Shown piece by piece: positions 14,095 to 42,946 of a DNA stretch of 47,593 nucleotides; within the stretch, counting starts at the first letter, position 1; each line of letters starts with the position of its first letter. This DNA is from a virus. A program made the translations under genes and the position numbers. The stretch lies in the IMG/VR virus record IMGVR_UViG_3300022836_000012, positions 1-47,593 of that record. One strand, 5' to 3'. The notes under the pieces are model-generated. The model was not told the DNA's origin, ran no database searches, and saw only the letters and a program-made list of their open reading frames with translations.

Positions 14095-14571
14095 TTACTG
14101 TACATTAGTAATAGTTGACCATGTACACATTTTATGCTTGTCGCCATATGTGCCAACTTCTTTGATGCAGGGATCTTTTTCATTGACGTAACTATTACCT
14201 GATGCTCCTGGAGCATGGTACCTAATATTGGGGTCTTGTGTCATTATAGTACCCCATTTCCACATAATACTAAAGTAATCATCACTGAAGTCTGGCAACT
14301 CTGATTCATTAGGATACGTAGATTTTAATAGTGGTACTTTAGGGTAAGACTGTCCGTTTATGTTAACGGTTCCTTCTATTGTTTCTCTTTGTACTTGGTA
14401 TTTGCCTAAATGGGCCTTTTCTACTACGTTTAATCTAGCCATGTCACTGTTAAAGTCCTCAAGTGCTTCTCCACTTAACGCAATACCGCCATACTGTCGC
14501 ATAGTAACGTGAATATATGTACCATCGGGTAGTTTATAAACATATGGTAATGATTGCATCGCTATAGCCAT
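14095..14571 (-). CDS. Unknown protein, 158 aa, possible virion component
   Basis: Not recognised. The N-terminus (MAIAMQSLPYVYKLPDGTYIHVTMRQYGG) is beta-rich; the C-terminal half carries Trp, Gly and Pro turns and three cysteines. It forms a pair with the 13677 gene downstream. TAGGAT precedes the ATG. Its size and composition suit a small structural or tail-associated protein, but that is inference. Confidence 0.55.
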   Translation of the reverse strand: MAIAMQSLPYVYKLPDGTYIHVTMRQYGGIALSGEALEDFNSDMARLNVVEKAHLGKYQVQRETIEGTVNINGQSYPKVPLLKSTYPNESELPDFSDDYFSIMWKWGTIMTQDPNIRYHAPGASGNSYVNEKDPCIKEVGTYGDKHKMCTWSTITNVQ

Positions 14572-14586
14572 TTTAAATCCTAGAAC

Positions 14587-14618
14587 TAAAGAAAAAGCAG
14601 GGCCCGAAAGCCCTGCTG
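14587..14618 (-). terminator. Intrinsic terminator of the tmRNA gene
   Basis: GCAGGGC-TTTCGG-GCCCTGC on the minus strand followed by TTTTTCTTT, just after the tmRNA coding piece. Confidence 0.9.
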
Positions 14619-14655
14619 GTTATTGGGTAACAAGGTGACCAACCCCGGAAAAGTT

Positions 14656-14700
14656 TTACGCGGCTAGCGCAAACTCCTCAAAGTAACTGTTTTCATTTGC
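14656..14700 (-). other. tmRNA tag-peptide reading frame
   Basis: The resume codon GCA (14698-14700) opens ANENSYFEEFALAA followed by TAA (14656-14658). The ALAA end is the usual ClpXP recognition end. The EEFA-x-AA part resembles alphaproteobacterial tags such as the one I recall for Caulobacter (EEFAVAA ending). Confidence 0.9.
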
Positions 14701-14788
14701 AGTTATTATAGTTGCTTGATTAACGGTCATCGCCTACCGTGCTGTCTGTTCAAGTACTCATTTACCCCGTCGAAACCTTGACACCCCC

Positions 14789-14817
14789 ATCAACAATACT
14801 CTGTAACAAAATACTCT
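14789..14817 (-). other. Intervening segment of the permuted tmRNA precursor
   Basis: These 29 bases separate the CCA end of the acceptor piece from the 5' end of the coding piece and must be removed to give two RNAs. The segment contains AGAGTATT twice. Confidence 0.75.
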
Positions 14818-14849
<32 letters not shown>

Positions 14850-14897
14850 GAAATACCTTTCCCCTTACTTCATACAGCAATAACTTGTATTTACTAG

Positions 14898-14919
14898 AAA
14901 AGGGCCCAGAGGCCCTTTT
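14898..14919 (-). terminator. Intrinsic terminator of the 14937 gene
   Basis: AAAAGGGCC-TCTG-GGCCCTTTT, a perfect 9-bp stem whose A/T ends allow action in either direction. It separates the protein gene from the tmRNA gene. Confidence 0.85.
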
Positions 14920-16736: not shown

Positions 16737-17050
16737 GATCTATCTACTTCTACCTGATTTGTCCATCCAGAGTTTATAACTTCCTCTGTGCCGTCACTGC
16801 GTACCAGTGTTACTGGGCCAGGACCTACATACTGTTGTGTAACCACCCAGTCATTGGCGTTGCGGTCCCTGCCACCACGCATTGGTGTTTCGTCTGAAGT
16901 CATGTAGCCTAATTCAGCTAGTTCACCAAAGCTGTTCATTCGAGCAGACCAACCAGCTGGCTGTACCTTGGGTGCTTGTCCACTGTCTATAGCGGCTTTA
17001 AGTTCTTCTAAACTTAGTTTTTGTGATTCGTACAGCTCGCTTGCTCTCAT
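16733..17050 (-). CDS. Unknown protein, 105 aa, similar N-terminal motif
   Basis: Starts MRASELYESQKLSLEELKAA, sharing the M-R-A-x-E-(F/L) opening with its neighbour at 16539. The remainder (MTSDETPMRGGRDRNANDWV) is a beta-rich domain that I do not recognise. It overlaps both neighbours by 4 bases, so the three genes 17047, 16733 and 16539 are translated as one unit. Confidence 0.6.
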   Translation of the reverse strand: MRASELYESQKLSLEELKAAIDSGQAPKVQPAGWSARMNSFGELAELGYMTSDETPMRGGRDRNANDWVVTQQYVGPGPVTLVRSDGTEEVINSGWTNQVEVDRS

Positions 17051-17433
17051 TCTAACGCTCCTGGCTCTTTGTCTAAGTATAGTTTCATCAAGTATCCAGC
17101 AACTGCGTCTGCTTGCTGTTCTATAGGTGATCCTGGATAACTCTGATCTGGAGACACCTGTCCTTTTTCGTCCTGCTTGTAGTGTGTTAGTTCGTGCGCA
17201 ACACTGCGCATAATATCAGCAAGGTTACGATTACCTGTGTATATCCAAATCATACCGTCCTGCATATCAAAGTGTGCTGTTTTCTTTTGATCACCTGATT
17301 CTTTTGAATCTTGAAACTCTAGACGTGGCATTTTTTTGATCTTTAGTTTATCACAAGTCCATTTTACAAAGTCTCGTAGTTCATCTTCGTGATCGGATAG
17401 TGTACTTTCGTTTATGATATCTTTAATGTGCAT
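17047..17433 (-). CDS. HExxH zinc metalloprotease-like protein
   Basis: 128 aa from the ATG at 17433; the frame is open to 17496 but that start would cross the late box. It contains SVAHELTHYKQ, a gluzincin-type HExxH motif, and a downstream PIEQQADAVAGYL where the glutamate could be the third zinc ligand. The N-terminus, MHIKDIINES, resembles the capsid-targeting motif of the two genes after it. GATAAATA ends exactly 5 bases before the ATG and no Shine-Dalgarno sequence is visible, so the mRNA is probably leaderless. It could be a packaged or maturation protease; the substrate is unknown. Confidence 0.65.
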   Translation of the reverse strand: MHIKDIINESTLSDHEDELRDFVKWTCDKLKIKKMPRLEFQDSKESGDQKKTAHFDMQDGMIWIYTGNRNLADIMRSVAHELTHYKQDEKGQVSPDQSYPGSPIEQQADAVAGYLMKLYLDKEPGALE

Positions 17434-17438
17434 TATGA

Positions 17439-17446
17439 TATTTATC
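17439..17446 (-). promoter_or_regulatory. Late-type promoter box placed for a leaderless mRNA
   Basis: GATAAATA followed by 5 bases and the ATG of the protease gene (17433). With the T4 geometry, +1 is the A of the ATG. Confidence 0.6.
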
Positions 17447-17449
17447 GCT

Positions 17450-17935
17450 TTAGCACTTATTAAAATTCTGATGTTTGTACCAACGTTTTTGACCAAATGT
17501 TCGCTTTAGACACATGCTGTGTTCTGCAAACGTATCTCTCCACGAAAAGAAACTAGGACCATGTGCTAAACTTTCGTGGGTGTACTTGTTATAGTTTGGA
17601 TTTTTTGTTGGACGGTAAACGTCCCATTGCCACTGATGCACCATTTCGTGTGCAAGTACGTTCACAAACCACTGCCTGCAAATCCAGTTCTTATTGAGAT
17701 GTATTGTGCAAAACGTGCCTTTGGACTGTAACTCGTGATACCAAAGACAGTAGGCCCAGGTTTTTTGTGGTTGTCCTAGTGTGATGTCAGGCATTGTTAG
17801 TGCGTTATCAAATATATAGTAGTTGATCAATCTATACGTATATATTGTTTCATCCATACTAGGTCGGTACATTTTCCTTTTTTGGAAAGTAATCTTTGGA
17901 AGCGGACGCTCCATTATTGATCTGAGTATATTCAT
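17450..17935 (-). CDS. SprT-like zinc metalloprotease
   Basis: 161 aa. The motif NVLAHEMVHQWQ, about residues 92-103, and the later LAHGPSFFSWR (H-G-x-x-F) are the two hallmarks of the SprT/Spartan family, proteases that remove DNA-bound proteins. A basic N-terminus (ITFQKRKMYR) and basic C-terminus (KRTFGQKRWYKHQ) could bind DNA. The start at 17935 is served by AGGAG inside the hairpin at 17941-17974, so translation is probably possible only from late transcripts. It lies next to another HExxH protein. Confidence 0.8.
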   Translation of the reverse strand: MNILRSIMERPLPKITFQKRKMYRPSMDETIYTYRLINYYIFDNALTMPDITLGQPQKTWAYCLWYHELQSKGTFCTIHLNKNWICRQWFVNVLAHEMVHQWQWDVYRPTKNPNYNKYTHESLAHGPSFFSWRDTFAEHSMCLKRTFGQKRWYKHQNFNKC

Positions 17936-22061: not shown

Positions 22062-23624
22062 TTAGTCCAGTTTGTCTTCTGCTACAAAGTAGTTAGGATC
22101 TTCGATAACATTTATTTCAACTAGATTGCCTGCACGTTCTAACAACTGCTTGCAGTCTGGGCTGAGATGCACTAGGGATAGTTTTTTGTTTGCGCTTATG
22201 TAACGTTCGCTTAGTGTATCAATTGCTTCTAGTCCTGAGTGGTCAATAACTCTGCTGTCAGCAAAATCAATCACAACATGATTGTTATCCTTGCTAGGAT
22301 TAAAGCCTTCTAAGAATGATGTTACTGATCCAAAGTACAAAGGACCATGCACTGCGTATACTGTACTACCGTAGTGATTCTCACGTGCTGTAACACTAAT
22401 GTGTTTGGCATGTTGCCAACTGAATACCAATGCACTTATAATAACACCAACCATAACAGCAAATGCCAGGTCAGTAAACACTGTAACAGCACTCACAGTT
22501 ATCAACACAAATGCATCGCTACGTGGTACACGTTTGATTATACGAAAACTGGACCATTCAAATGTTTTAATTACCACAATAAACATAACACCCAACAGTG
22601 CCGCAATTGGTATCTGTTCGATAAGTGGTGCCGCCGCTAGTATAAACAACAGCAGGAACAGACTAGCACTTATACCAGACCAACGTCCACGTCCGCCTGA
22701 TGTGATGTTGATCATGCTCTGTCCAATCATTGCACAACCACCCATACCACCAAAGAACCCTGTAACAGTGTTAGCAACACCTTGCGCTACACACTCTTTG
22801 TTGCCACGCCCACGTGTTTGTGTCATTTCATCTATTAGGCGAAGTGTGAGCAAAGATTCAATCAATCCTATAGCGGCCAACACAACTGAGTAAGGCCAAA
22901 TAATCATAAGTGTTTCGAAGTTAAAAGGAACTGCTGGTATATGGAAACTAGGTAATCCGCCACTGATACTTGCAATGTCTCCTACTACTCTTGTGTCCAG
23001 CGCAAATGCCCAAACCAAAATAGACACAACCAGTATTGCTCCCAGTGACGAAGGTATTGCTCCTGTTAGTCGTGGCAAGTACTGAATTATCAACATGGTT
23101 ACACCAATCAGAGCCAACAGCAAGTACATGGTTGATCCTTGTAACCATGCTACGTCAACAATTGATCCTGCTAGGAATGTGTTGGCTAACCATCCAGGTT
23201 CACCATCTACACCAAACTGTTTTAACTGTGCTAGGAAGATAACAATAGCAAGTCCATTAACAAAACCCAGCATAACAGGGTAAGGTACTATGCGTATCAG
23301 TTTACCTGCTTTGAGTGCGCCTGCAAGTATCTGAATCATGCCCATGAGAACCACAGTGGCAAACAAATATTCAACACCGTGATTCGCAACCAGTGCCACC
23401 ATAACCACTGCTAGTGCTCCTGTTGCTCCACTGATCATTCCGGGTCTACCGCCCATAACTGCTGTGATTAATCCTACAATAAAAGCGGCGTAAAGTCCTA
23501 CCAGTGGTCCAACTCCTGCAACAAATGCAAAAGCAACTGCTTCTGGAACTAATGCTAGTGCAACTGTTAAACCGGATAGTGTATCATTCTTAAGGGAAGC
23601 CATGCGGCCAAGTATAGTATTCAT
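22062..23624 (-). CDS. SulP-family anion transporter with STAS domain
   Basis: 520 aa. Residues 1-400 are a multi-pass membrane domain with [13 protein letters not shown] and the [20 protein letters not shown] segment that mark the SulP family (sulfate, bicarbonate and related anions). The last 110 residues form a STAS domain ([11 protein letters not shown], then [14 protein letters not shown]). Both are complete and of normal length. AATAAATA ends 5 bases before the ATG with no Shine-Dalgarno sequence, so it is probably a leaderless late gene. It would insert into the host inner membrane and import an anion; which one cannot be told from sequence. Transporters of this size are rare in phages. 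Confidence 0.9.
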
Positions 23625-25841: not shown

Positions 25842-26287
25842 AATTCGACGGGCTGTTGCTCGTGGACTGTTGGGAAGATAAATGGATCCATGTGAGCAAG
25901 AATTACAAAGCTCGTCAGTTTTACCAAAACATTATCAAGTTCATATCTGAATATTCTTTTGATAATGTATACTTTTTCGCAAACCAAGATTATAGAACAC
26001 ATGAGTGCTTCTATGAACACTTTCAAAATAACATAACTGTAGTTAAAACGGTAACAGAATTAGTAGGGGAAACATTCCTAGTAGGCGGTGCCGCATGGGA
26101 CATGTGTTTACATGACCCATCAAATCCAAGTTTTACAACTCTCGCAAACGCAGGAAAAACTGTTTACAGTTGCCCTAGTATTGTTGACACAGAAATGGGG
26201 TCAACACAAATAGTTACACAAGATACATTCAAGTATGATAGAAGAATACGTTGGGTCAAGCAGAATAACTTATTCTGCGTTTCTTAG
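25838..26287 (+). CDS. Unknown protein, 149 aa
   Basis: The product starts MKFDGLLLVDCWEDKW, with a hydrophobic strand after the start, then NVYFFANQDYR and ETFLVGGAAWDMCLHDPS. This alternation suggests a Rossmann-like or isochorismatase-like alpha/beta fold, but key residues of those families are not evident. It is coupled to the secreted-protein gene upstream (ATGA) and overlaps the convergent gene at 26270. Confidence 0.6.
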   Translation: MKFDGLLLVDCWEDKWIHVSKNYKARQFYQNIIKFISEYSFDNVYFFANQDYRTHECFYEHFQNNITVVKTVTELVGETFLVGGAAWDMCLHDPSNPSFTTLANAGKTVYSCPSIVDTEMGSTQIVTQDTFKYDRRIRWVKQNNLFCVS

Positions 26288-26770
26288 TTGGTTGGAAATA
26301 AGTCGACATCGTACTTCCAGCGACGGTAGTATCTCTCTTAACCAAGGAATATCTTCGCCTTGTTTTTGTACCCATTGATCCTGCAGTACATAAGCTTCTA
26401 TTTCTCTTCTGGACCATTCCTGGCAACTAGGTGCTTTACCGTACTTTGCATATTGTAGTGCATGTATCATTTCATGGTACATTATGCTTTGTCCTTCTAC
26501 TGTGTTTAAATCCACTTCGTCTGCGATGTAGACTATGTTGCCCCACTGGGCGGCAAGTGCATCACATTTATTATTGCACACCACCGATTCAACTTGATCA
26601 CGTGGGACTATCATGACATGAGGATATTTGTCTGACGTAAAACTGGGTATTTCTATTCCCAAATCTTGTGATGCTTGTTCAAGGAGATTCTTTTCCAAAT
26701 TTTCATCTGTCAGGCCAACTCCAATTACAAAGCCAATGACAACAAGAACTGTGACCAGTATTTTCTTCAT
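26270..26770 (-). CDS. Secreted HExxH metallopeptidase-like protein
   Basis: 166 aa from the ATG at 26770 (MKKILVTVLVVIGFVIGVGL, a signal peptide or anchor). The motif SIMYHEMIHALQYAKYG has HExxH, followed by CQEWSRREIEAY where the later Glu may be the third ligand. This resembles DUF6647-type secreted peptidases. It has the cysteine pair VVCNNKCD. In the periplasm it could act on peptidoglycan-linked or envelope proteins; the substrate is unknown. Confidence 0.65.
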   Translation of the reverse strand: MKKILVTVLVVIGFVIGVGLTDENLEKNLLEQASQDLGIEIPSFTSDKYPHVMIVPRDQVESVVCNNKCDALAAQWGNIVYIADEVDLNTVEGQSIMYHEMIHALQYAKYGKAPSCQEWSRREIEAYVLQDQWVQKQGEDIPWLREILPSLEVRCRLISNQLRNAE

Positions 26771-26772
26771 CT

Positions 26773-27489
26773 CTAATCCCACAAGTTCTGGAGGTAGACT
26801 CCAAACAGGCGGAATCCATTTTGTATACGAGCTTCGTGTAATTTCATTCCGTCGTGGTCATAAACCATAGTATGATTGGGTCCGTTCATCAATTCACTGG
26901 CGCCGCCTTCTAGTTTCTTCCACTGTATGTCACTTACCCCAGATTGAAACTGTTCTCCCCAGTCGTCATTGATCTTGCTATCAAACGCAAAGATCATTTC
27001 ATTTAATACCCAGTCCCACCGTTCAAAATACTTGTCGTCAACTTCACCACTTGCACGTTGCTTCTTGGTTAGTTTCTTACCGTGCAGTTCTTTTGGCACA
27101 TCCTTTAGGTCAACACAAGGGCCGCCGTGTTTGGTTTCTTTAAGTTGCTTGAGCATAGGTAGCACAATATGCGCCAGTGTGTGATCCATACTCCAGGTAT
27201 CCCACCGATCAATGTGTACTTGGACTGTTTGCTCTTTTTTGCTGTGAATCCAAGCTAAGAACTTAGATAGCAAAGTGTTGTGTCGACCTCGATCCCAACT
27301 GGTAATATCACCAACCTCTGCAGCAGGTTCTACACTACCGTGAGCAAGCCATTCACCAAAATTGCGAACCCAGACAGGTTTACCTTTCATTCCGCATTCG
27401 TCTTCTACGTCTTTTGTCCAAAAGCAAAGTAGTTCTGCTAGTTGGTATGGGCCAAAATCATTTATATAATTTCCAATTTTCACACGCAT
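26773..27489 (-). CDS. Conserved phage protein, 238 aa
   Basis: The N-terminus (MRVKIGNYINDFGPYQLAELLCFW), the block RWDTWSMDHTLAHIVLPMLK and the C-terminal FRLFGVYLQNLWD are shared by a protein family common in T4-like and other large phages. No function is known to me. GGAGA precedes the ATG. Confidence 0.8.
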   Translation of the reverse strand: MRVKIGNYINDFGPYQLAELLCFWTKDVEDECGMKGKPVWVRNFGEWLAHGSVEPAAEVGDITSWDRGRHNTLLSKFLAWIHSKKEQTVQVHIDRWDTWSMDHTLAHIVLPMLKQLKETKHGGPCVDLKDVPKELHGKKLTKKQRASGEVDDKYFERWDWVLNEMIFAFDSKINDDWGEQFQSGVSDIQWKKLEGGASELMNGPNHTMVYDHDGMKLHEARIQNGFRLFGVYLQNLWD

Positions 27490-35891: not shown

Positions 35892-37982
35892 CTACTTGGT
35901 TGTAGCCACAAATATTCCGTCCCAGGCAGCAGGTAGATCTTGTGTTAGCATATATTCACAGCGTTCAATCCACATATCATAATACCCATCTATTTGTCCA
36001 TCAAATGAGCCTTTTAGTTTGTTGCATAAAGTGATTGCTTTGTTAAAACTCTGCTCTCTATAATATTGATGCATTTCGATGTGTAACTGTTTGCTTGCTT
36101 GCCATGCAGTTGTTTGTTCTTTTTCACCTAGTACAGTGTAGATGCGTATGCCCACAGTTTTACCTTTTACTGCAAGTTCGTCTACCTTTAAGTAAAAGAA
36201 ATCATTCTTGGTTGCATCGTATGTGGTTTCGCCTACAAGTAACAAACATCCATATTCTTTACACTTGCTCTCAATACGTGCCGCAGTACTAACAGCATCG
36301 CCTAACACATCATAACTGTGTCTTGACGTACTACCCATTTCACCCAAGTAACCTAGTCCGCTATTAATGCCAGCACCCATGCCAATCGGTGGTCTTCCTT
36401 CTGCTACAATTTTATCATTGAACTTTTCCACTGCTGTAAGCATGTCCAATCCTGTTTTAACTGCTGAGTGATGGTGGCGTGGATCATCGTTGGGTGCATT
36501 GTGTACATGCATTGACGCATCACCAATGTACTTTATGATCATTCCGTCACGATCCAGTACTGGTTGCGTAATAGCATCCATGTAGCCGTTCATCAAGTTG
36601 GTAAGTCCTTTTACATCATCGCCAAAACTTTCACCTAGTGGAGTAAAGCCACGTAGGTCACTAAAACAAATACTGATTTCACGCTTCATGCCATCCTTGA
36701 TTAGACCTGGATTCTCTTGAAGCATACGTACCACTGTAGGACTTGCATAGCCTGCAAACTGTTTTTTGATTTCTTGCTTTTGTCTAAACTCATCCATGAA
36801 GCGCAGGAATGCCGCTATACTCCATGTGAGGAACACTGCAAATATTGGGAAACTCCAATCCAGCAAATAGCCATCGTTCAAGTATGCTGTCCTACTACCG
36901 TAGAATATGCCACCTAATGATACCACAATGCCACCAACACCAAAGTACCAGTTTAGTTTAAGTACCAGTATCATTACTACCAAACTTATTGCCAGTGCTG
37001 TTGCCAGTTCACCAAGGTCTGACCACCATGGGCGACTTATGTTGATACCATTAACTATTGTGTAAACACTTGCGGCAATTAAATCATGATCATAACTTCT
37101 GCCAACTGGAGTTGCAATGGTGTTGTCCAACCCCGACGCTGTTAAACTTAGTATAACAATACCGCCATTGAAGTTGGGCAAATTGTCAAATGCAAACTCC
37201 TGTACTTTGTATTTGTAGTCTACGTAGATGCTACCGTTTGCGTCTGTCTTAATTGTGCTAAACTGTGGGATACGCACTGCTTCCACACCTGCGTCACCCA
37301 GCTTCATTTGGTAACTGATGTCACCTGCCAGTACACGCACAATCTCTGTGGGTATGCTGGGAAATATCTGTGCGCTGTCTGTAGGCTCTTTGCTGGGTAT
37401 GCGAACAACAAGCGGAAGTTTACGTACAACTCCATCAGCTTCTGTACTGCTCAACATCATACCAACGCCCCAAGCACTCTCACCAATTTCTTTTGTTGGA
37501 CCTATTGCTTGTCCATAACGGAATAGCCAATCTTCCCATGCTTTGCCTGTTGTGCTGTTGTCCTTAATAGCAATGCCACGTGGTACTGGTACACCCTTGC
37601 CTCTCAGCGCAGGAACTTGCCCAACAATAACAGGTGCATTCTGTAACAAATCTATAAATGCAGGGTCGCCACCAAAGCGATCTTCCTCAGCAAACAGCAT
37701 GGGCAGTACCACAAGCCCCGCACCATTCTCGTATAGTCGTATAATTTCATTGGCTAGTATGTCACGAGGCCAAGGCCACTGTCCGTTGCGGTCAATATCA
37801 TCGTTGTCTATTCTAACCACAGCAATAGGAATGTCGCTGTCTAACTGAATTGTTTCTTGTGGGACACTACGTTGATGTGTGTCCAGTGCTTTGAGGCGGA
37901 TAACTTCTACTATCCACGGATCCGTCCACCTAATACTCAATACCGCACCCAGGGCGATCAACGCCACTAACCATTTTTTCAT
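35892..37982 (-). CDS. CHASE2-domain adenylate/guanylate cyclase
   Basis: 696 aa. Residues 1-18 form an N-terminal membrane segment. Residues 30-315 are a CHASE2 extracytoplasmic sensor. Three membrane spans lie between about 322 and 396. The catalytic class III domain runs from 434 to about 620. Metal aspartates are D442 (SDLRGF) and D488 (IGDAS). The adenine-specifying residues K484 and D558 are present and R569 is kept. The transition-state Asn is replaced by Ser565 (GDAVSTAARIE). It probably makes cAMP, with reduced activity possible. It is the last gene of the curli-like block; in bacteria CHASE2 cyclases often neighbour FecR genes. AAGGAA precedes the ATG. Confidence 0.9.
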   Translation of the reverse strand: MKKWLVALIALGAVLSIRWTDPWIVEVIRLKALDTHQRSVPQETIQLDSDIPIAVVRIDNDDIDRNGQWPWPRDILANEIIRLYENGAGLVVLPMLFAEEDRFGGDPAFIDLLQNAPVIVGQVPALRGKGVPVPRGIAIKDNSTTGKAWEDWLFRYGQAIGPTKEIGESAWGVGMMLSSTEADGVVRKLPLVVRIPSKEPTDSAQIFPSIPTEIVRVLAGDISYQMKLGDAGVEAVRIPQFSTIKTDANGSIYVDYKYKVQEFAFDNLPNFNGGIVILSLTASGLDNTIATPVGRSYDHDLIAASVYTIVNGINISRPWWSDLGELATALAISLVVMILVLKLNWYFGVGGIVVSLGGIFYGSRTAYLNDGYLLDWSFPIFAVFLTWSIAAFLRFMDEFRQKQEIKKQFAGYASPTVVRMLQENPGLIKDGMKREISICFSDLRGFTPLGESFGDDVKGLTNLMNGYMDAITQPVLDRDGMIIKYIGDASMHVHNAPNDDPRHHHSAVKTGLDMLTAVEKFNDKIVAEGRPPIGMGAGINSGLGYLGEMGSTSRHSYDVLGDAVSTAARIESKCKEYGCLLLVGETTYDATKNDFFYLKVDELAVKGKTVGIRIYTVLGEKEQTTAWQASKQLHIEMHQYYREQSFNKAITLCNKLKGSFDGQIDGYYDMWIERCEYMLTQDLPAAWDGIFVATTK

Positions 37983-38000
37983 GTTTTTTCCTTGACTAGG

Positions 38001-38008
38001 TATTTAGT
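38001..38008 (-). promoter_or_regulatory. Possible late-type promoter box for the cyclase gene
   Basis: ACTAAATA on the minus strand keeps the TAAATA core; it overlaps the stop codon of the curlin-like gene and would give a leader of about 13 bases with AAGGAA. Confidence 0.3.
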
Positions 38009-38777
38009 TTTGGGTAACTGACACAGAACATCCGCCTACTGTCGCACATGATTGCGATAGGCTATATGTTTGTGCTGTGCTACTGTATTGTGTCAAATCT
38101 AAATCTGTTCCGTATGTGCCTGACAGGGAAATTGTTGCTGAATGACTAGCACTTCCACCTTGTATGATATCTACATCATTGTTGCTGTTTGATATTGTTA
38201 GGTCTATAGATTTGTCAAAGTTGTATTCTTGTCTTGCGTAAACGTCATTATAGCTACCATAAATGTTAGTAATATTACTATGGTTGTCGCCGCCTGCTCG
38301 TTGACTTCCTATGAAACTGTTGTTTGATCCGTGTACATCCAATCTTATATTGTGGCCACCGTATTCTACACTGTCAGGTGATTGAAAAGTACCGTCGGCC
38401 TGCACATGATATCCCTGCCCTATTTTAATACTGTTGTTGTTACCAGCAACATGGAATTCAAACCTGTCGCCTTCGCATGCTAATTGGTTGCATAACTGTT
38501 TAATGTCCATATCGTTGGAGTCACCGTCTAGGTCGCCTCCCCATCCAGCACCACTGCCCCATGTAGCTGTATACCCAACATAAGCATCATCGCCCTTCTG
38601 ATCTATAGCCACAGTATTACTGGCACCACCAAAACTGTAATCAATTTCGTTATCACTACCATCCACAGTGACCGTTATGCTATTAGAGTTTCCGCTGGTT
38701 ACTTGGTCAATAGATATTAAGTTATCAGCACTTGCTGTGCTAATAATTAACGATAGTAATAGTAGCAGTTTATTCAT
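38004..38777 (-). CDS. Curlin-like secreted amyloid protein (2)
   Basis: 257 aa from the ATG at 38777; the frame extends upstream but the signal peptide MNKLLLLLSLIISTASA fixes the start. The mature protein has repeats of alternating polar and hydrophobic residues with N-x-x-x-I-x-Q/D patterns (NLISIDQVTSGNSNSIT, ASNTVAIDQKG, NNSIKIGQG, SNNDVDIIQGG), the curlin pattern. It ends CSVSVTQN. Two cysteine pairs could form disulfides, unusual for curlin. It would be exported through CsgG as an extracellular fibre or adhesin. Confidence 0.75.
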   Translation of the reverse strand: MNKLLLLLSLIISTASADNLISIDQVTSGNSNSITVTVDGSDNEIDYSFGGASNTVAIDQKGDDAYVGYTATWGSGAGWGGDLDGDSNDMDIKQLCNQLACEGDRFEFHVAGNNNSIKIGQGYHVQADGTFQSPDSVEYGGHNIRLDVHGSNNSFIGSQRAGGDNHSNITNIYGSYNDVYARQEYNFDKSIDLTISNSNNDVDIIQGGSASHSATISLSGTYGTDLDLTQYSSTAQTYSLSQSCATVGGCSVSVTQN

Positions 38778-39108
38778 ACTCTGCTGGCCCTTTGTGGAAG
38801 TGTCCTTCTGTGCAGTGACGCATTTCGTGCAACCACACACGCATGTCAAGATCTGGCTGCACATAAGGTACAAATACCTCACACCATTTCTTGCCTTCTT
38901 CTGTTACACTCCAGCGAGCCCATCCTTTAACCTTTGTGGTTTTTCCAGTATACTGTTCCCATGTGGTTTGTATGGTTTCTGGATCCATGATTACAATTTT
39001 CATGGTACCATCATAGTATGAGTGTGGTTGATCATAAACATGATGCGGTACACATGCACCTAATAGTAAAACTAAACTAATTTTGATTAATAGTAATAAC
39101 CGTGTCAC
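38770..39108 (-). CDS. HExxH-containing lipoprotein, 112 aa
   Basis: It starts with GTG at 39108 behind GGAGA. The signal peptide ends in the lipobox LLLGAC. The C-terminal half contains VWLHEMRHCTEGHFHKG: HExxH with nearby extra histidines, a metalloprotease-like site but not the exact metzincin spacing. Located between the FecR and curlin genes, it may process or anchor the fibre proteins. It overlaps both neighbours. Confidence 0.65.
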   Translation of the reverse strand: MTRLLLLIKISLVLLLGACVPHHVYDQPHSYYDGTMKIVIMDPETIQTTWEQYTGKTTKVKGWARWSVTEEGKKWCEVFVPYVQPDLDMRVWLHEMRHCTEGHFHKGPAEYE

Positions 39109-40144
39109 TTGCGTTCTCCGTTGTGTGTAATGTTATTGGGCTACCTGCTTGATTCAAGTTCATTTGTGTACTGCTGTTTTGGTCAAGTGTAATGCTAAAA
39201 ATCCTACCGTCAACGTTTCTATATATAAGCCACTCACCATCCAGCACAATCTGTGTGTTACCTTGTTCATATGCTCCTGGCCTAATAGGATTAGTTGAGA
39301 ACGAGTCTACCTCTTTAAGCAGTTTTGCATTCATTAAATCTAAAATATTACCCAACATATCAACATCAAGTAGGTTAAAGTCTAGTCTTGTGAACACTAA
39401 CTCGTCTTCATCTAATTCATTGTTGTCAAGAAGATTAACGTCAAGTTCATTAAAATCTAATATGGACTGTTCACGTTCAGCCTGAGTCTCGTCCTCTTTT
39501 TCTTTTGGCTTTTGTACAATTAACAGGTTGTTAATTTGATTTACATCTAGGTCCAATAGGACAGGTGGTGTTGGTACATTTTCTCGTGTGTTGACCATTG
39601 TTGCTTGATATGCCTGGTTAAGTATTACCTGCCCTATATCGCTTTCAACAGATATCTCTCCCACAGTGCCATCTGCGTTGGGCAACAGTATAACAAGACT
39701 CCTGCCTATTTCGTCTACGGTCATGCTGAATGCAGTACCACGCACACCAATACGTGCTGTTGGTGTTTGTATGTCTACGCTTTGTCTGTTGTTTTTAGCA
39801 ATCTTACCTGATGCATACTTAACTGTGCCCAAGCCCACTTTCATCTTGAGCTTACTTTTTGTAGGGTCAGCGGCATCATATATGAAATCATCAATGATTA
39901 ATTTGCTGTGTTTTTCAATTTGTATTTTGGTATCATCATTGAAGCCAATACCAATAATACCGTCGGCGGTGCTTATTGTGTCCAGCATCTCTACACCCAG
40001 ATCTTTTTCTACTGTGATTTTGTCATTATCGCGTGTAAGTTGTGCAGGGCCGGTTTGTTTTTCAACTGTACCGATCCCTGCATAACACGTACTAATCTGA
40101 AACGTTAATAGTAACGCTAGAAGTTGAACCATTTGTGTTAACAT
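39077..40144 (-). CDS. FecR-domain secreted protein with curlin-like C-terminus
   Basis: 355 aa. A signal peptide ends STCYA. The FecR domain spans about 25-190, including VDIQTPTARIGVRGTAFSM. The middle is an Asp/Leu/Asn-rich repeat (LDFNELDVNLLDNNELDED). The end, ITLDQNSSTQMNLNQAGSP and TVITINQN, has the pattern of the curlin repeats and of the curlin-like protein next door. FecR domains are periplasmic sensors or adhesin modules. It may be a secreted fibre cap or the ligand for the CHASE2 sensor. It overlaps the curlin gene by about 53 bases. Confidence 0.8.
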   Translation of the reverse strand: MLTQMVQLLALLLTFQISTCYAGIGTVEKQTGPAQLTRDNDKITVEKDLGVEMLDTISTADGIIGIGFNDDTKIQIEKHSKLIIDDFIYDAADPTKSKLKMKVGLGTVKYASGKIAKNNRQSVDIQTPTARIGVRGTAFSMTVDEIGRSLVILLPNADGTVGEISVESDIGQVILNQAYQATMVNTRENVPTPPVLLDLDVNQINNLLIVQKPKEKEDETQAEREQSILDFNELDVNLLDNNELDEDELVFTRLDFNLLDVDMLGNILDLMNAKLLKEVDSFSTNPIRPGAYEQGNTQIVLDGEWLIYRNVDGRIFSITLDQNSSTQMNLNQAGSPITLHTTENASDTVITINQN

Positions 40145-40790
40145 CTACTGTACTCGCCTCTGCACCTGATTGAGTAATACTTAGAGTTGAACTGCTGCCG
40201 GTATGATTAAGCAGAGTGTCGTGTTGTGAAGCACCACTGTGGGTAACTGTAACGGTGTTGGTACTGCCGTCAATGTCAATGTCTGTGGTTTTGTCTAGGA
40301 TACTAGTTGCTGTGGAATCCTCAGTTACTGTTATAGTATTACTGCCACTGCCGCTGGTTAGGTCAATGTCTACGTTAACATCGTCAACAAGACTTTGTGT
40401 AGCGCCAACGTTTACACCAACAGTGTTTGTGTTGCCTGGATTGGTGATGCTGATTGTAACATCATCACTGCCACCGTTGGTGCCTCCTGTAGTACCTACC
40501 TGTATGTCAATGTCTGAACTATTGCCATTAGTGGTTGCTGTTACACTGGCGTTGTCGCCGTAAACATCGTAATCTAATGCATTGCTTGATCCAACTTGGT
40601 CAATGTCTAATATGGTGCTGGCGCCATCGCTCTTGCTGTCGTCACCGCTTGCGCCAACGCTGTTTCCAGAACCGTCTTGATCTATAGTGATTGTGGCTGA
40701 TGATCCAACCTGATCAATATAGATCAAGTTGTCAGCCCATGCCGGACTGCTTATTAATAAAGACATGAATGCTAATGCTATCCTTGTCAT
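40092..40790 (-). CDS. Curlin-repeat secreted protein (1)
   Basis: 232 aa. The signal peptide MTRIALAFMSLLISSPAWA is followed by curlin-type repeats (NLIYIDQVGSSATITIDQDG, ILDIDQVGSSNALDYD, DIDGSTNTVTVTHSG, STLSITQSG). The N-x-Q-x-G-x-N pattern is clear in the first units and looser later; acidic residues and Ser/Thr dominate. It should form extracellular amyloid-like fibres, secreted through CsgG. AAAGGAGC precedes the ATG, behind a leader hairpin. CsgA/CsgB type cannot be told apart. Confidence 0.85.
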   Translation of the reverse strand: MTRIALAFMSLLISSPAWADNLIYIDQVGSSATITIDQDGSGNSVGASGDDSKSDGASTILDIDQVGSSNALDYDVYGDNASVTATTNGNSSDIDIQVGTTGGTNGGSDDVTISITNPGNTNTVGVNVGATQSLVDDVNVDIDLTSGSGSNTITVTEDSTATSILDKTTDIDIDGSTNTVTVTHSGASQHDTLLNHTGSSSTLSITQSGAEASTVDVNTNGSTSSVTINVSD

Positions 40791-40822
40791 GTGTGTCGCT
40801 CCTTTTGGGTGGTCCCCATTAT

Positions 40823-40863
40823 ACGTGCCAATATCTTAGTATTATCGCACGTTAGTATTTAAA
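40823..40863 (-). promoter_or_regulatory. Late-type box and leader hairpin of the curlin gene
   Basis: TTTAAATA (40856-40863) is followed by an inverted repeat ACGTGC/GCACGT (40847-40852 with 40823-40828) and then by AAAGGAGC. This 109-base gap separates csgG from the curlin genes, so the fibre genes can be transcribed apart from the export genes. Confidence 0.45.
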
Positions 40864-40899
40864 TAATAAGTTGCTATCATTAAATATGTATGTTATACG

Positions 40900-41718
40900 C
40901 TAGTCTACGTAATTACTCCATCCTGTTGATTTATCATCTAGCATAGTGTAATCCCATAGTTTTTTACGTTTTCCTTCTTTGGTTAACTCAATTACTGCTT
41001 GTTCAACTGCCTGTTTTACTGCATAATTAACTGGTTCATTGGTACTGGTACCTGACTCTACCTCTAGAACTTGTGTGCCTTGATCGTAGAATTTAAACAC
41101 GTTTATGCCAAGACTAGTGCTTAAAATCGTCTTTTCGGTGCTCACATTTAGCAATACTTCTCCCGACAGTACACTTACCGCTCTAAGCCCTATTGTGACT
41201 ACATCTACACGCCATTCTTGTTGTGCACCAATGCCCATAACCCTGGCGCCAATACCACCTGTAAATTTGTTTGTATCATAACCAATAATGCCGCCTTCGA
41301 TTATAATACCAGCAAACTTCATTGCACCCAATTTCTGTTTCTCATCAAACTCACTTCGTGCATTACGTATAATCTGTCTTTCTTTGATTAGGTTGTCCAG
41401 GCCATTGCGCTCTACAACATCAAAAAACTCACCATCTGCTAGTGCCATTAGTGCATCTATTAAGTATACTTCTGCACCTTGTGTTACTGCTGTACTGATG
41501 TTGGCAATGTTATCTGCTGGTTTACGTTGTCCAGTCTTATCTTGGAAACTGTATATTGCAACTGTCACAGGCTGTCCGCCTTTAATTGCAGGGAAATTAA
41601 TTAAATGTTTCTTGACTGGGGTTTCAGCAAGCTCAGCTGGTCTGCCAAGTTTTGGATTAGTCGAGGCGCAACCAACTAACAAAAAAACCAATAACGCCAC
41701 ACATATTCTACCTAGCAT
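40900..41718 (-). CDS. csgG: Curli secretion channel lipoprotein
   Basis: 272 aa, close to E. coli CsgG. The lipobox is VGCAS with the lipid-bearing Cys17. The domain order is as in the family: PVTVAIYSFQDKTGQRKP, VIDALMALADGEFFDVVERN, GIIIEGGIIGYDTN, and a C-terminal helix. CsgG forms a nine-fold outer-membrane pore through which curlin subunits are exported. Here it directly follows the CsgF gene (9-base gap). AAAGGAGA lies 5 bases before the ATG. All parts are present. Confidence 0.93.
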   Translation of the reverse strand: MLGRICVALLVFLLVGCASTNPKLGRPAELAETPVKKHLINFPAIKGGQPVTVAIYSFQDKTGQRKPADNIANISTAVTQGAEVYLIDALMALADGEFFDVVERNGLDNLIKERQIIRNARSEFDEKQKLGAMKFAGIIIEGGIIGYDTNKFTGGIGARVMGIGAQQEWRVDVVTIGLRAVSVLSGEVLLNVSTEKTILSTSLGINVFKFYDQGTQVLEVESGTSTNEPVNYAVKQAVEQAVIELTKEGKRKKLWDYTMLDDKSTGWSNYVD

Positions 41719-41727
41719 GCATCTCCT

Positions 41728-42270
41728 TTAAAAGGCAAAACTGGCAACAGGAATTTCAACCTTCGTAACTGATCCATCTGTTTGCGTTACGTTTAATGTT
41801 ACTAGGTCGTCGGTCATTTCATAAGCCACTGTATTGCCTAGTAGATCAATAGTACCACTACTTTGTGGATTTTCCCCAAACAGTTTGTCTGAAATTTGCT
41901 TACTAAGTTCAGCATAGATTCTACTTTCTAAATTAGCCAAGAACTTATTAACATTAGAGTTTTCTTTTTCACGCTCAATTTCTCTTGCCGCGGACTCTAA
42001 CTTAGATTTGATTTCTGCTCTTCTAGTGTGTGTTAGGTTTTCAATGGTCAACACATGACTACTGTAGCCTATACCGTTAAAACTAGGGTTATTAAACTTA
42101 TAAGTTAAGTCGCCTGCTGTTGCCGCACTGATAAAAAACATGCCCACAAGGAATCCCATAATAAAACTCCAAAAGCCAAAACTCAACACTGTTGATATAG
42201 TATAGGTTACTGGGTTGGACTTTTTAAACTTCTGCCAGGCTGCCTTTTCATAACTACTTTGATGATTCAT
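41728..42270 (-). CDS. csgF: Curli assembly factor, N-terminally extended
   Basis: 180 aa. The mature part begins GDLTYKFNNPSFNG, the signature of CsgF, which plugs into CsgG and nucleates the fibre. It ends VTLNVTQTDGSVTKVEIPVA, as usual in the family. The N-terminus is unusual: about 20 charged cytoplasmic residues (MNHQSSYEKAAWQKFKKSN) precede a long hydrophobic stretch that ends FFISAATA. This could be a long signal peptide or an inner-membrane anchor; a shorter start at M38 is possible. CsgE was not found. Confidence 0.85.
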   Translation of the reverse strand: MNHQSSYEKAAWQKFKKSNPVTYTISTVLSFGFWSFIMGFLVGMFFISAATAGDLTYKFNNPSFNGIGYSSHVLTIENLTHTRRAEIKSKLESAAREIEREKENSNVNKFLANLESRIYAELSKQISDKLFGENPQSSGTIDLLGNTVAYEMTDDLVTLNVTQTDGSVTKVEIPVASFAF

Positions 42271-42583
42271 TTTTTGTTTTAGCTCCTTGGTCCTTGACCT
42301 GTTTTAGTTTTAGTTCTAATTCTTGTGCTTTTTGTAAATTTGCTCTAGCTTTTGCATCTAGTTCAAGAATCATGTTTAACTTTTGGTTCAGTCTAATTAA
42401 ATCGTTATCAAGCATACGAATTCTGTCAATCAACGCAATCAGCGTCATTTGTGCTTCGCTTAGTACAGGATCAATTTCTTTTGTTGCCCAGGTCCATATG
42501 TAATATACAAAGTACCCTAACCCACACGCGGCTATAATCGGAAAACCATATTGGTTTATTGCGCCGGCTACATCAATGTCCAT
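42254..42583 (-). CDS. Small membrane coiled-coil protein, 109 aa (paralogue 1)
   Basis: An N-terminal membrane span (INQYGFPIIAACGLGYFVYY) is followed by a long helix with heptads (LIALIDRIRMLDNDLIRLNQ) and a Lys-rich end. It shares the GFPI-AA-x-GGYFV start with the 42600 gene. The layout resembles a holin-like or envelope-anchored phage protein. It overlaps the csgF start by 17 bases. Confidence 0.65.
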   Translation of the reverse strand: MDIDVAGAINQYGFPIIAACGLGYFVYYIWTWATKEIDPVLSEAQMTLIALIDRIRMLDNDLIRLNQKLNMILELDAKARANLQKAQELELKLKQVKDQGAKTKNESSK

Positions 42584-42599
42584 TTAGTAGCCTCTCATT

Positions 42600-42881
42600 C
42601 TAGTCGCGACGAGCATCGTTCTTGCCGTCTGCTCTAGCAATACGGTTCAAGTCTGGTGTTACCCCAAATGCATTGCTCATGAGTGTGTCAATACGAATCA
42701 CGTCATGGTTCATGGTCTTAACACGATTGTCCAATGCGTTAATTATTCCTGTAAGTCCTTTTACACTGCCCATTACACCGTCAAGGATAAAGCGCATAGT
42801 AAGGAATACAAAGTACCCGCCGGCCAGTGCCGCGGCGATAGGAAAACCAACTTCGGCAATCAATTGAAGTATTTCTGTCAT
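42600..42881 (-). CDS. Small membrane protein, 93 aa (paralogue 2)
   Basis: The start, MTEILQLIAEVGFPIAAALAGGYFVF, is a membrane span, followed by IINALDNRVKTMNHDVIRID and an end of charged residues (ARADGKNDARRD). It is a likely duplicate of the 42254 gene. It is the first gene of the curli-like block; GGTAAATA (42905-42912) and AAGGAGC lie just upstream. Confidence 0.65.
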   Translation of the reverse strand: MTEILQLIAEVGFPIAAALAGGYFVFLTMRFILDGVMGSVKGLTGIINALDNRVKTMNHDVIRIDTLMSNAFGVTPDLNRIARADGKNDARRD

Positions 42882-42938: not shown

Positions 42939-42946
42939 TATAAATA
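42939..42946 (+). promoter_or_regulatory. T4-type late promoter box placed for a leaderless mRNA
   Basis: An exact TATAAATA followed by 5 bases and the ATG at 42952. Confidence 0.65.

Follow-up and report, generated by a model that had tools for sequence, protein, structure and literature searches.

A curli-type secretion module joined to FecR and CHASE2 cyclase genes in phage DNA

The window analysed here is a 47,593-base IMG/VR virus record (IMGVR_UViG_3300022836_000012) that carries a compact block of nine genes on its minus strand. The phage is of a marine type. The block is probably, though by no means certainly, a module for type VIII (curli) secretion linked with a unit of FecR-domain protein plus CHASE2 cyclase, as in pelagiphages and in the Methylophilales phage Melnitz, and would combine export with signalling. 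The module is real and conserved, and its kind has already been published; new is a further member with one private gene. The initial annotation had proposed nine genes between 42881 and 35892, and open reading frames (ORFs) and Pfam matches agree with it in position and strand for all of them. From 42881 to 35892 they are ordered as follows.

42600..42881, minus strand: SM1, small membrane protein of 93 amino acids (phrog_18771; holin family phrog_4898, E=1.2e-4)
42254..42583, minus strand: SM2, small membrane protein of 109 amino acids, a paralogue of SM1, with no kinase domain
41728..42270, minus strand: CsgF (Pfam PF10614, E=2e-18)
40900..41718, minus strand: CsgG, outer-membrane pore lipoprotein (Pfam PF03783, E=7e-51; lipobox-like Cys in alignments)
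40092..40790, minus strand: CUR1, first curlin-like subunit, 232 amino acids (Curlin_rpt in aligned members; beta-solenoid model)
39077..40144, minus strand: FecR-domain protein (Pfam PF04773, E=1.5e-8; signal-peptide-like start; curlin-like C-terminal strand motif)
38770..39108, minus strand: small HExxH lipoprotein of 112 amino acids, named from its sequence
38004..38777, minus strand: CUR2, second curlin-like subunit (Curlin_rpt, E=1.4e-4)
35892..37982, minus strand: CHASE2 class III nucleotidyl cyclase, 696 amino acids (PF05226, E=9e-32; Guanylate_cyc PF00211, E=9e-18)

Neighbouring genes overlap at SM2/CsgF, CUR1/FecR, FecR/HExxH and HExxH/CUR2, while the remaining neighbours are 9 to 109 bases apart, with the widest gap between csgG and CUR1. 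For CUR2 a start at 38777, giving the signal-peptide-like MNKLLLLL, is more plausible than the GTG at 38882. No informative Pfam match was obtained for the HExxH lipoprotein, SM1 or SM2.

Type VIII secretion is recognised by a CsgG pore lipoprotein together with CsgF, and the Pfam matches identify both in the block, which bears out the earlier proposal that this phage carries curli export genes. In the alignment, the window CsgF is longer at its N-terminus than those of Melnitz and of Pelagibacter phage HTVC008M. The constriction residues of CsgG were considered as a phage-specific trait and rejected; they differ from the enterobacterial reference, but so do those of three alphaproteobacterial CsgGs. 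Curlin-repeat subunits of such a system, likewise proposed in the initial annotation, are also present. CUR2 scores above the Pfam cut-off (its NCBIfam CsgB match, E=0.0015, is below that model's cut-off), and CUR1 is recognised through its aligned members, 29 of 35 of which match Curlin_rpt at E up to 1, and through a predicted CsgA-like fold. The NCBIfam CsgA match of CUR1 (E=1.2e-6) falls far short of the cut-off of that model. AlphaFold models CUR1 as a beta-solenoid with a predicted local distance difference test (pLDDT) score of 87.7. When 115 Foldseek candidates were compared with the model using VIA-align, the top structure was 8c50, the CsgA of Pontibacter (Z 19.5, 188 residues, root-mean-square deviation (rmsd) 8.4), and SufB-type helices ranked below it (Z 15-16). 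CUR1 is therefore best described as a predicted solenoid, for which CsgA is the best but not the sole resemblance.

The initial annotation had left the conservation of gene order in other phages to be checked, and the order is found in the cultured phages HTVC008M and Melnitz and, wherever it could be tested, in 62 distinct viral loci. These loci stem from a search of viral contigs with a CsgG alignment, which yielded 483 relatives; the 80 best were retained, so that the sample leans to close relatives; duplicates and the window's virus were then left out. CsgF lies upstream of csgG in 62/62 loci, FecR downstream of it in 51/51 testable loci and the cyclase downstream in 32/32 testable loci, and an ORF of more than 180 amino acids occupies the place of CUR1 in all 53 loci where FecR was found. 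When two loci of the window's virus and eight from bacterial bins are included (72 loci), the order counts are 69/70, 57/57 and 37/37. Since the order recurs in cultured phages and in dozens of viral loci it is not due to chance. Six loci (L028, L035, L040, L042, L051, and L079) have an extra signal-bearing protein of 499-788 amino acids between FecR and the cyclase, ending in a Phe as is often seen in outer-membrane barrels.

The initial annotation also held that no such phage system had been described, and this has to be withdrawn. The module is described in PMC7029224 (2020), PMC9004378 (2022), and PMC9599517 (2022), one of which names FecR and adenylate cyclase. A literature search, with candidates partly judged by title, found no further paper on such a phage module. 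According to PMC9599517, podo- and myophages have the order kinase(s)-CsgF-CsgG-CsgA/B-FecR, often with another CsgA/B and a cyclase behind it, viral curli are found at 65/65 GOV2.0 stations, and transcripts have been reported. Among 50,697 phage records seven contain CsgG relatives: HTVC008M twice (46%), four Melnitz isolates (42%), and one Salmonella fragment. The last is a 1499-base 'Salmonella phage' record titled UNVERIFIED (L012, OR851715.1), whose CsgG looks enterobacterial and which is perhaps host DNA. The module proteins of the window are 35-55% identical to those of the cultured phages in alignments. The pelagiphage type VIII secretion module (PMC9599517, PMC7029224; HTVC008M) has CsgF, CsgG, curlin, FecR, a second curlin and adenylate cyclase after one or two small genes, and Melnitz (PMC9004378) shares with the window the gene order, the type of cyclase (87% identity in the cyclase part) and a two-piece transfer-messenger RNA (tmRNA). 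Both differ from the window in that they have no HExxH lipoprotein gene between FecR and CUR2. In PMC9004378, where a role in lysis is proposed for the csgGF of Melnitz, csgA and csgB are said to be absent; the Melnitz record (L011), however, annotates two curlin-associated repeat proteins. The HExxH lipoprotein was found on three viral contigs with 99% identity, and so far in this virus only, in a search reaching no further than close relatives. More small proteins with HExx(H) motifs are encoded in the window at 26270-26782, 17047-17496, and 17450-17935, one of which, judged by eye, appears to be secreted.

We take the window to be phage DNA and not a bacterial island, because it is an IMG/VR virus record, because a 221,342-base viral contig with a 100% identical copy of its CsgG and a 99% identical copy of its HExxH protein also encodes a T4-type Gp23 capsid protein (E=1e-98), and because PHROG families are matched by seven of ten further window proteins that were tested. 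These seven are a DNA ligase, an exonuclease, Hsp20, a radical SAM protein, UDP-glucose dehydrogenase, a virion structural protein, and one of unknown function; three had no match. The shared gene order in cultured phages also speaks against an island, which can be ruled out. A permuted tmRNA is encoded at 14565-14910 on the minus strand (tag ANENSYFEEFALAA), scoring 147 bits with tmRNA_permuted and 140.9 bits with beta_tmRNA in Rfam; that of Melnitz is reported to be alphaproteobacterial-like (PMC9004378). At 22062-23624 the window encodes a 520-amino-acid membrane protein which by eye resembles SulP-type anion transporters but matches no PHROG family at E up to 0.001.

The last gene encodes CHASE2 followed by a class III catalytic domain with the two metal-binding Asp residues (D442 and D488). 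Residues were counted in an alignment of 36 near-full-length sequences out of 57 distinct cyclase ORFs, one of them from the window's own virus, and the tested residues for metal and substrate, D442, K484, D488, and R569, are kept in 36/36. In 24 of the 35 relatives from other viruses the cyclase part is 74-92% identical to that of the window, while the sensor is merely 33-40% identical in 21 of those 24; the remaining 11 are 39-63% identical in the cyclase part. In comparison with Melnitz, four-fold degenerate sites have the same base at 24/59 positions in the sensor and at 35/73 in the cyclase. Such sites are thus strongly diverged in both parts, which speaks for selection acting at the protein level and against a recent transfer. 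The catalytic domain, far better conserved than the sensor, seems to be under selection, and in some lineages it has possibly been replaced.

The genes, their order and their conservation are directly observed, and for CUR1 and the FecR domain the fold is predicted; every functional step in the following is one that we infer. CsgG and CsgF would form an outer-membrane pore. With their signal peptides CUR1 and CUR2 would pass the inner membrane, and the CsgG pore would then release them as beta-solenoid subunits of fibres. Located in the periplasm or at the pore, the FecR protein would pair with CHASE2 of the inner-membrane cyclase, and nucleotide production by this enzyme might then depend on export or on the state of the envelope. 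SM1 and SM2 would act as accessories in the inner membrane, possibly in the manner of holins. The phage would probably benefit from an altered surface of the infected cell, by which other phages are excluded or cells are retained. The initial annotation placed these events late in infection, which the promoter scan does not support: the T4 late promoter motif occurs three times in the window against a chance mean of 4.4, and the copy near the operon (at 42939) faces away from it.

Several observations weigh against this combination of export and signalling. Bacterial curli operons are csgBAC-csgDEFG. The window shares CsgG, CsgF and curlin repeats with them, whereas csgC, csgD, and csgE were not recognised in the locus by Pfam, and FecR and the CHASE2 cyclase are added. 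CUR1 itself matches Curlin_rpt at E=0.009, below the curated cut-off, and a plain Foldseek search of the PDB with its model yielded nothing significant (best E 0.07). The link between FecR and the cyclase is drawn from gene neighbourhood. Class III cyclases usually have an Asn in the transition-state motif, where it acts on the transition state. At this position (565) the window has a Ser, as do 30/36 of the aligned cyclases with the window's virus counted, and Asn is found in 6/36, in the HTVC008M cyclase, which is outside the alignment, and in the two bacterial cyclases that were read. Cyclase activity is not certain because of this Ser. No fibre has been seen, and for Melnitz no clumping was observed in cytograms or by transmission electron microscopy under the culture conditions of the authors (PMC9004378), which counts in particular against a version in which cells clump. 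The same paper argues for a pinholin or secretin role.

That role leads to the alternative that fares best, although it is improbable: the CsgGF pore together with SM1 and SM2 may be a lysis-timing or leak device, a pinholin or gated secretin, with the curlin-like proteins as plugs or passengers. In PMC9004378 the case is made from synteny and models along with the lack of clumping. The small membrane genes give some weight to it, as a PHROG holin family is matched by 20 of 29 of their products at E up to 0.1 (best 4e-5), and phrog_18771 by 29/29. They appear, matched by position, to be the genes labelled histidine kinase in PMC9599517. That label calls for HisKA and HATPase domains, and is not supported; neither was among the 25 of 29 Pfam families listed at E up to 1 for the 29 proteins, and the nearest kinase-type matches were one histidine-kinase HAMP model (E 0.15) and one eukaryotic pseudokinase (0.031). 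Two small membrane genes lie upstream in 31/74 distinct loci, and in 18/74 they are found downstream in the opposite orientation (a pair in 15 loci, a single gene in 3). Of the other 25 loci, L051, L035, and L079 lack such genes in a downstream stretch of over 7 kb, L008 belongs to the window's virus and breaks off at csgG, and all others extend less than 5 kb downstream and are uninformative on this point. Against a lysis device stand the curlin-like genes, which stay in place and of which CUR1 is predicted to be a CsgA-like solenoid, and the FecR and cyclase genes, which a lysis pore does not need.

The FecR domain is recognised by sequence in the window protein and in 38/38 phage FecR proteins. 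In the model it is similar to the PupR signalling domain (Z 15.6, rmsd 2.9, 135 aligned), and residues 21-116 match 5ix9, titled Cell surface anchoring domain (Z 10.6). Confidence is low at about 208-259, while the strands at 297-354 have a pLDDT near 80. The domain is the evidence for a reading suggested for pelagiphages in PMC9599517, in which the pore serves nutrient or siderophore uptake and FecR is an iron regulator. This is unlikely, as no anti-sigma domain was among the Pfam matches of the 38 phage FecR proteins, the window FecR starts with a hydrophobic, signal-peptide-like stretch, and the curlin-like genes are left unexplained. No sigma factor was found among the module genes; the rest of the virus was not searched for a sigma factor or TonB receptor.

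A curlin-like C-terminal strand motif, drawn up after the FecR tails had been seen, is present in 53/54 FecR, 43/59 CUR1, and 31/42 CUR2 proteins, compared to 0/68 CsgG, 4/66 CsgF, 2/45 cyclase, and 0/96 small membrane proteins as controls, and to 95/1301 unlabelled ORFs, curlin-like ones included. A Gln in the tail is invariant in 40 aligned FecRs. Pfam Curlin_rpt matched 1/38 FecRs (E 0.035). A profile built from the ends of curlins matched 22/59 FecR ends, 14/71 CsgF ends and 6/295 shuffled FecR ends at E up to 1, and at E up to 0.1 the figures were 6/59 for FecR versus 5/71 for CsgF. Homology of the FecR tail to curlin is unproven, and the two possibly share a type of last beta-strand. One could imagine an adaptor in which this strand attaches to exported subunits or to the pore and the FecR domain reports to the CHASE2 cyclase, giving a signal only once the export machine is in place; we regard this as a doubtful elaboration of the export and signalling function.

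CHASE2 cyclases were said in the initial annotation to neighbour FecR genes in bacteria, and such pairs are indeed seen. In 6 of 20 genomes, chosen from 89 with CHASE2 and scored by eye, CHASE2 is preceded on its own strand by FecR at a distance of at most 2.5 kb. Of 24 same-contig FecR-cyclase pairs picked by eye among the matches listed, 23 are within 3.5 kb, a figure without a denominator. An operon in Burkholderia contaminans, described as regulating biofilm formation, similarly has a FecR protein with a predicted signal peptide adjoining a CHASE2 sensor, but this sensor is a histidine kinase, and csgFG are not mentioned in the portions of the text consulted (PMC5192318). Relatives of the window cyclase occur in 174/385 alphaproteobacterial genomes (E up to 1e-30), with 27-36% identity among the matches listed, the best being nearly full-length. 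Relatives of the FecR part occur in 137/385 (E up to 1e-8); those among the matches listed end at or before position 253 of the 373 of the model, and the curlin-like tail is therefore not seen there.

CsgF was found in 7/385 of these genomes at E up to 0.001, in six of them over the cut-off. In the six, csgF is over 100 kb away from CHASE2 (present in 3) and FecR (present in 5) or on a different contig, except that one genome (G003) consists of short contigs and is uninformative on distance. FecR and CHASE2 adjoin in two of the CsgF-bearing genomes, and in others. Eight CsgG relatives lie in bacterial bins; four have the phage layout through the cyclase, three end early but start alike, and L094 differs. 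The seven other than L094 are probably misbinned phage contigs. A bacterial source with the complete module was not found in this small test of six CsgF-bearing genomes among 385 and eight bin contigs. In the small number of bacterial genomes examined, csgFG lie away from FecR-CHASE2, and the phage module may therefore have arisen when two bacterial modules fused. In the simplest history, a csgFG-curlin set and a FecR-CHASE2 pair would have been brought together in an ancestral phage or in a bacterium not yet sampled; an alphaproteobacterial ancestry is inferred in PMC9599517. That the block is a passive relic from such a donor, functionless at present, would agree with the hosts being said to lack the system (PMC9599517, PMC9004378), but is very improbable given the open genes, the order kept across deep divergence, a cyclase domain conserved while silent sites diverged, and the reported transcripts.

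What this analysis adds is that the small membrane proteins are without a recognised kinase domain and weakly holin-like, that nearly all phage FecR proteins end in a curlin-like motif, to which profiles lend weak support, that the cyclase is conserved above its sensor, and that two modules have possibly been fused. The doubt over the labels 'histidine kinase' and 'iron regulator' shifts which experiments make sense, and the conserved cyclase domain is a handle that can be tested directly via its product. CsgG relatives are found in hundreds of viral contigs, and if the export genes and the cyclase do act as a unit, the phage would reprogram both the surface and the second messengers of very abundant ocean bacteria.

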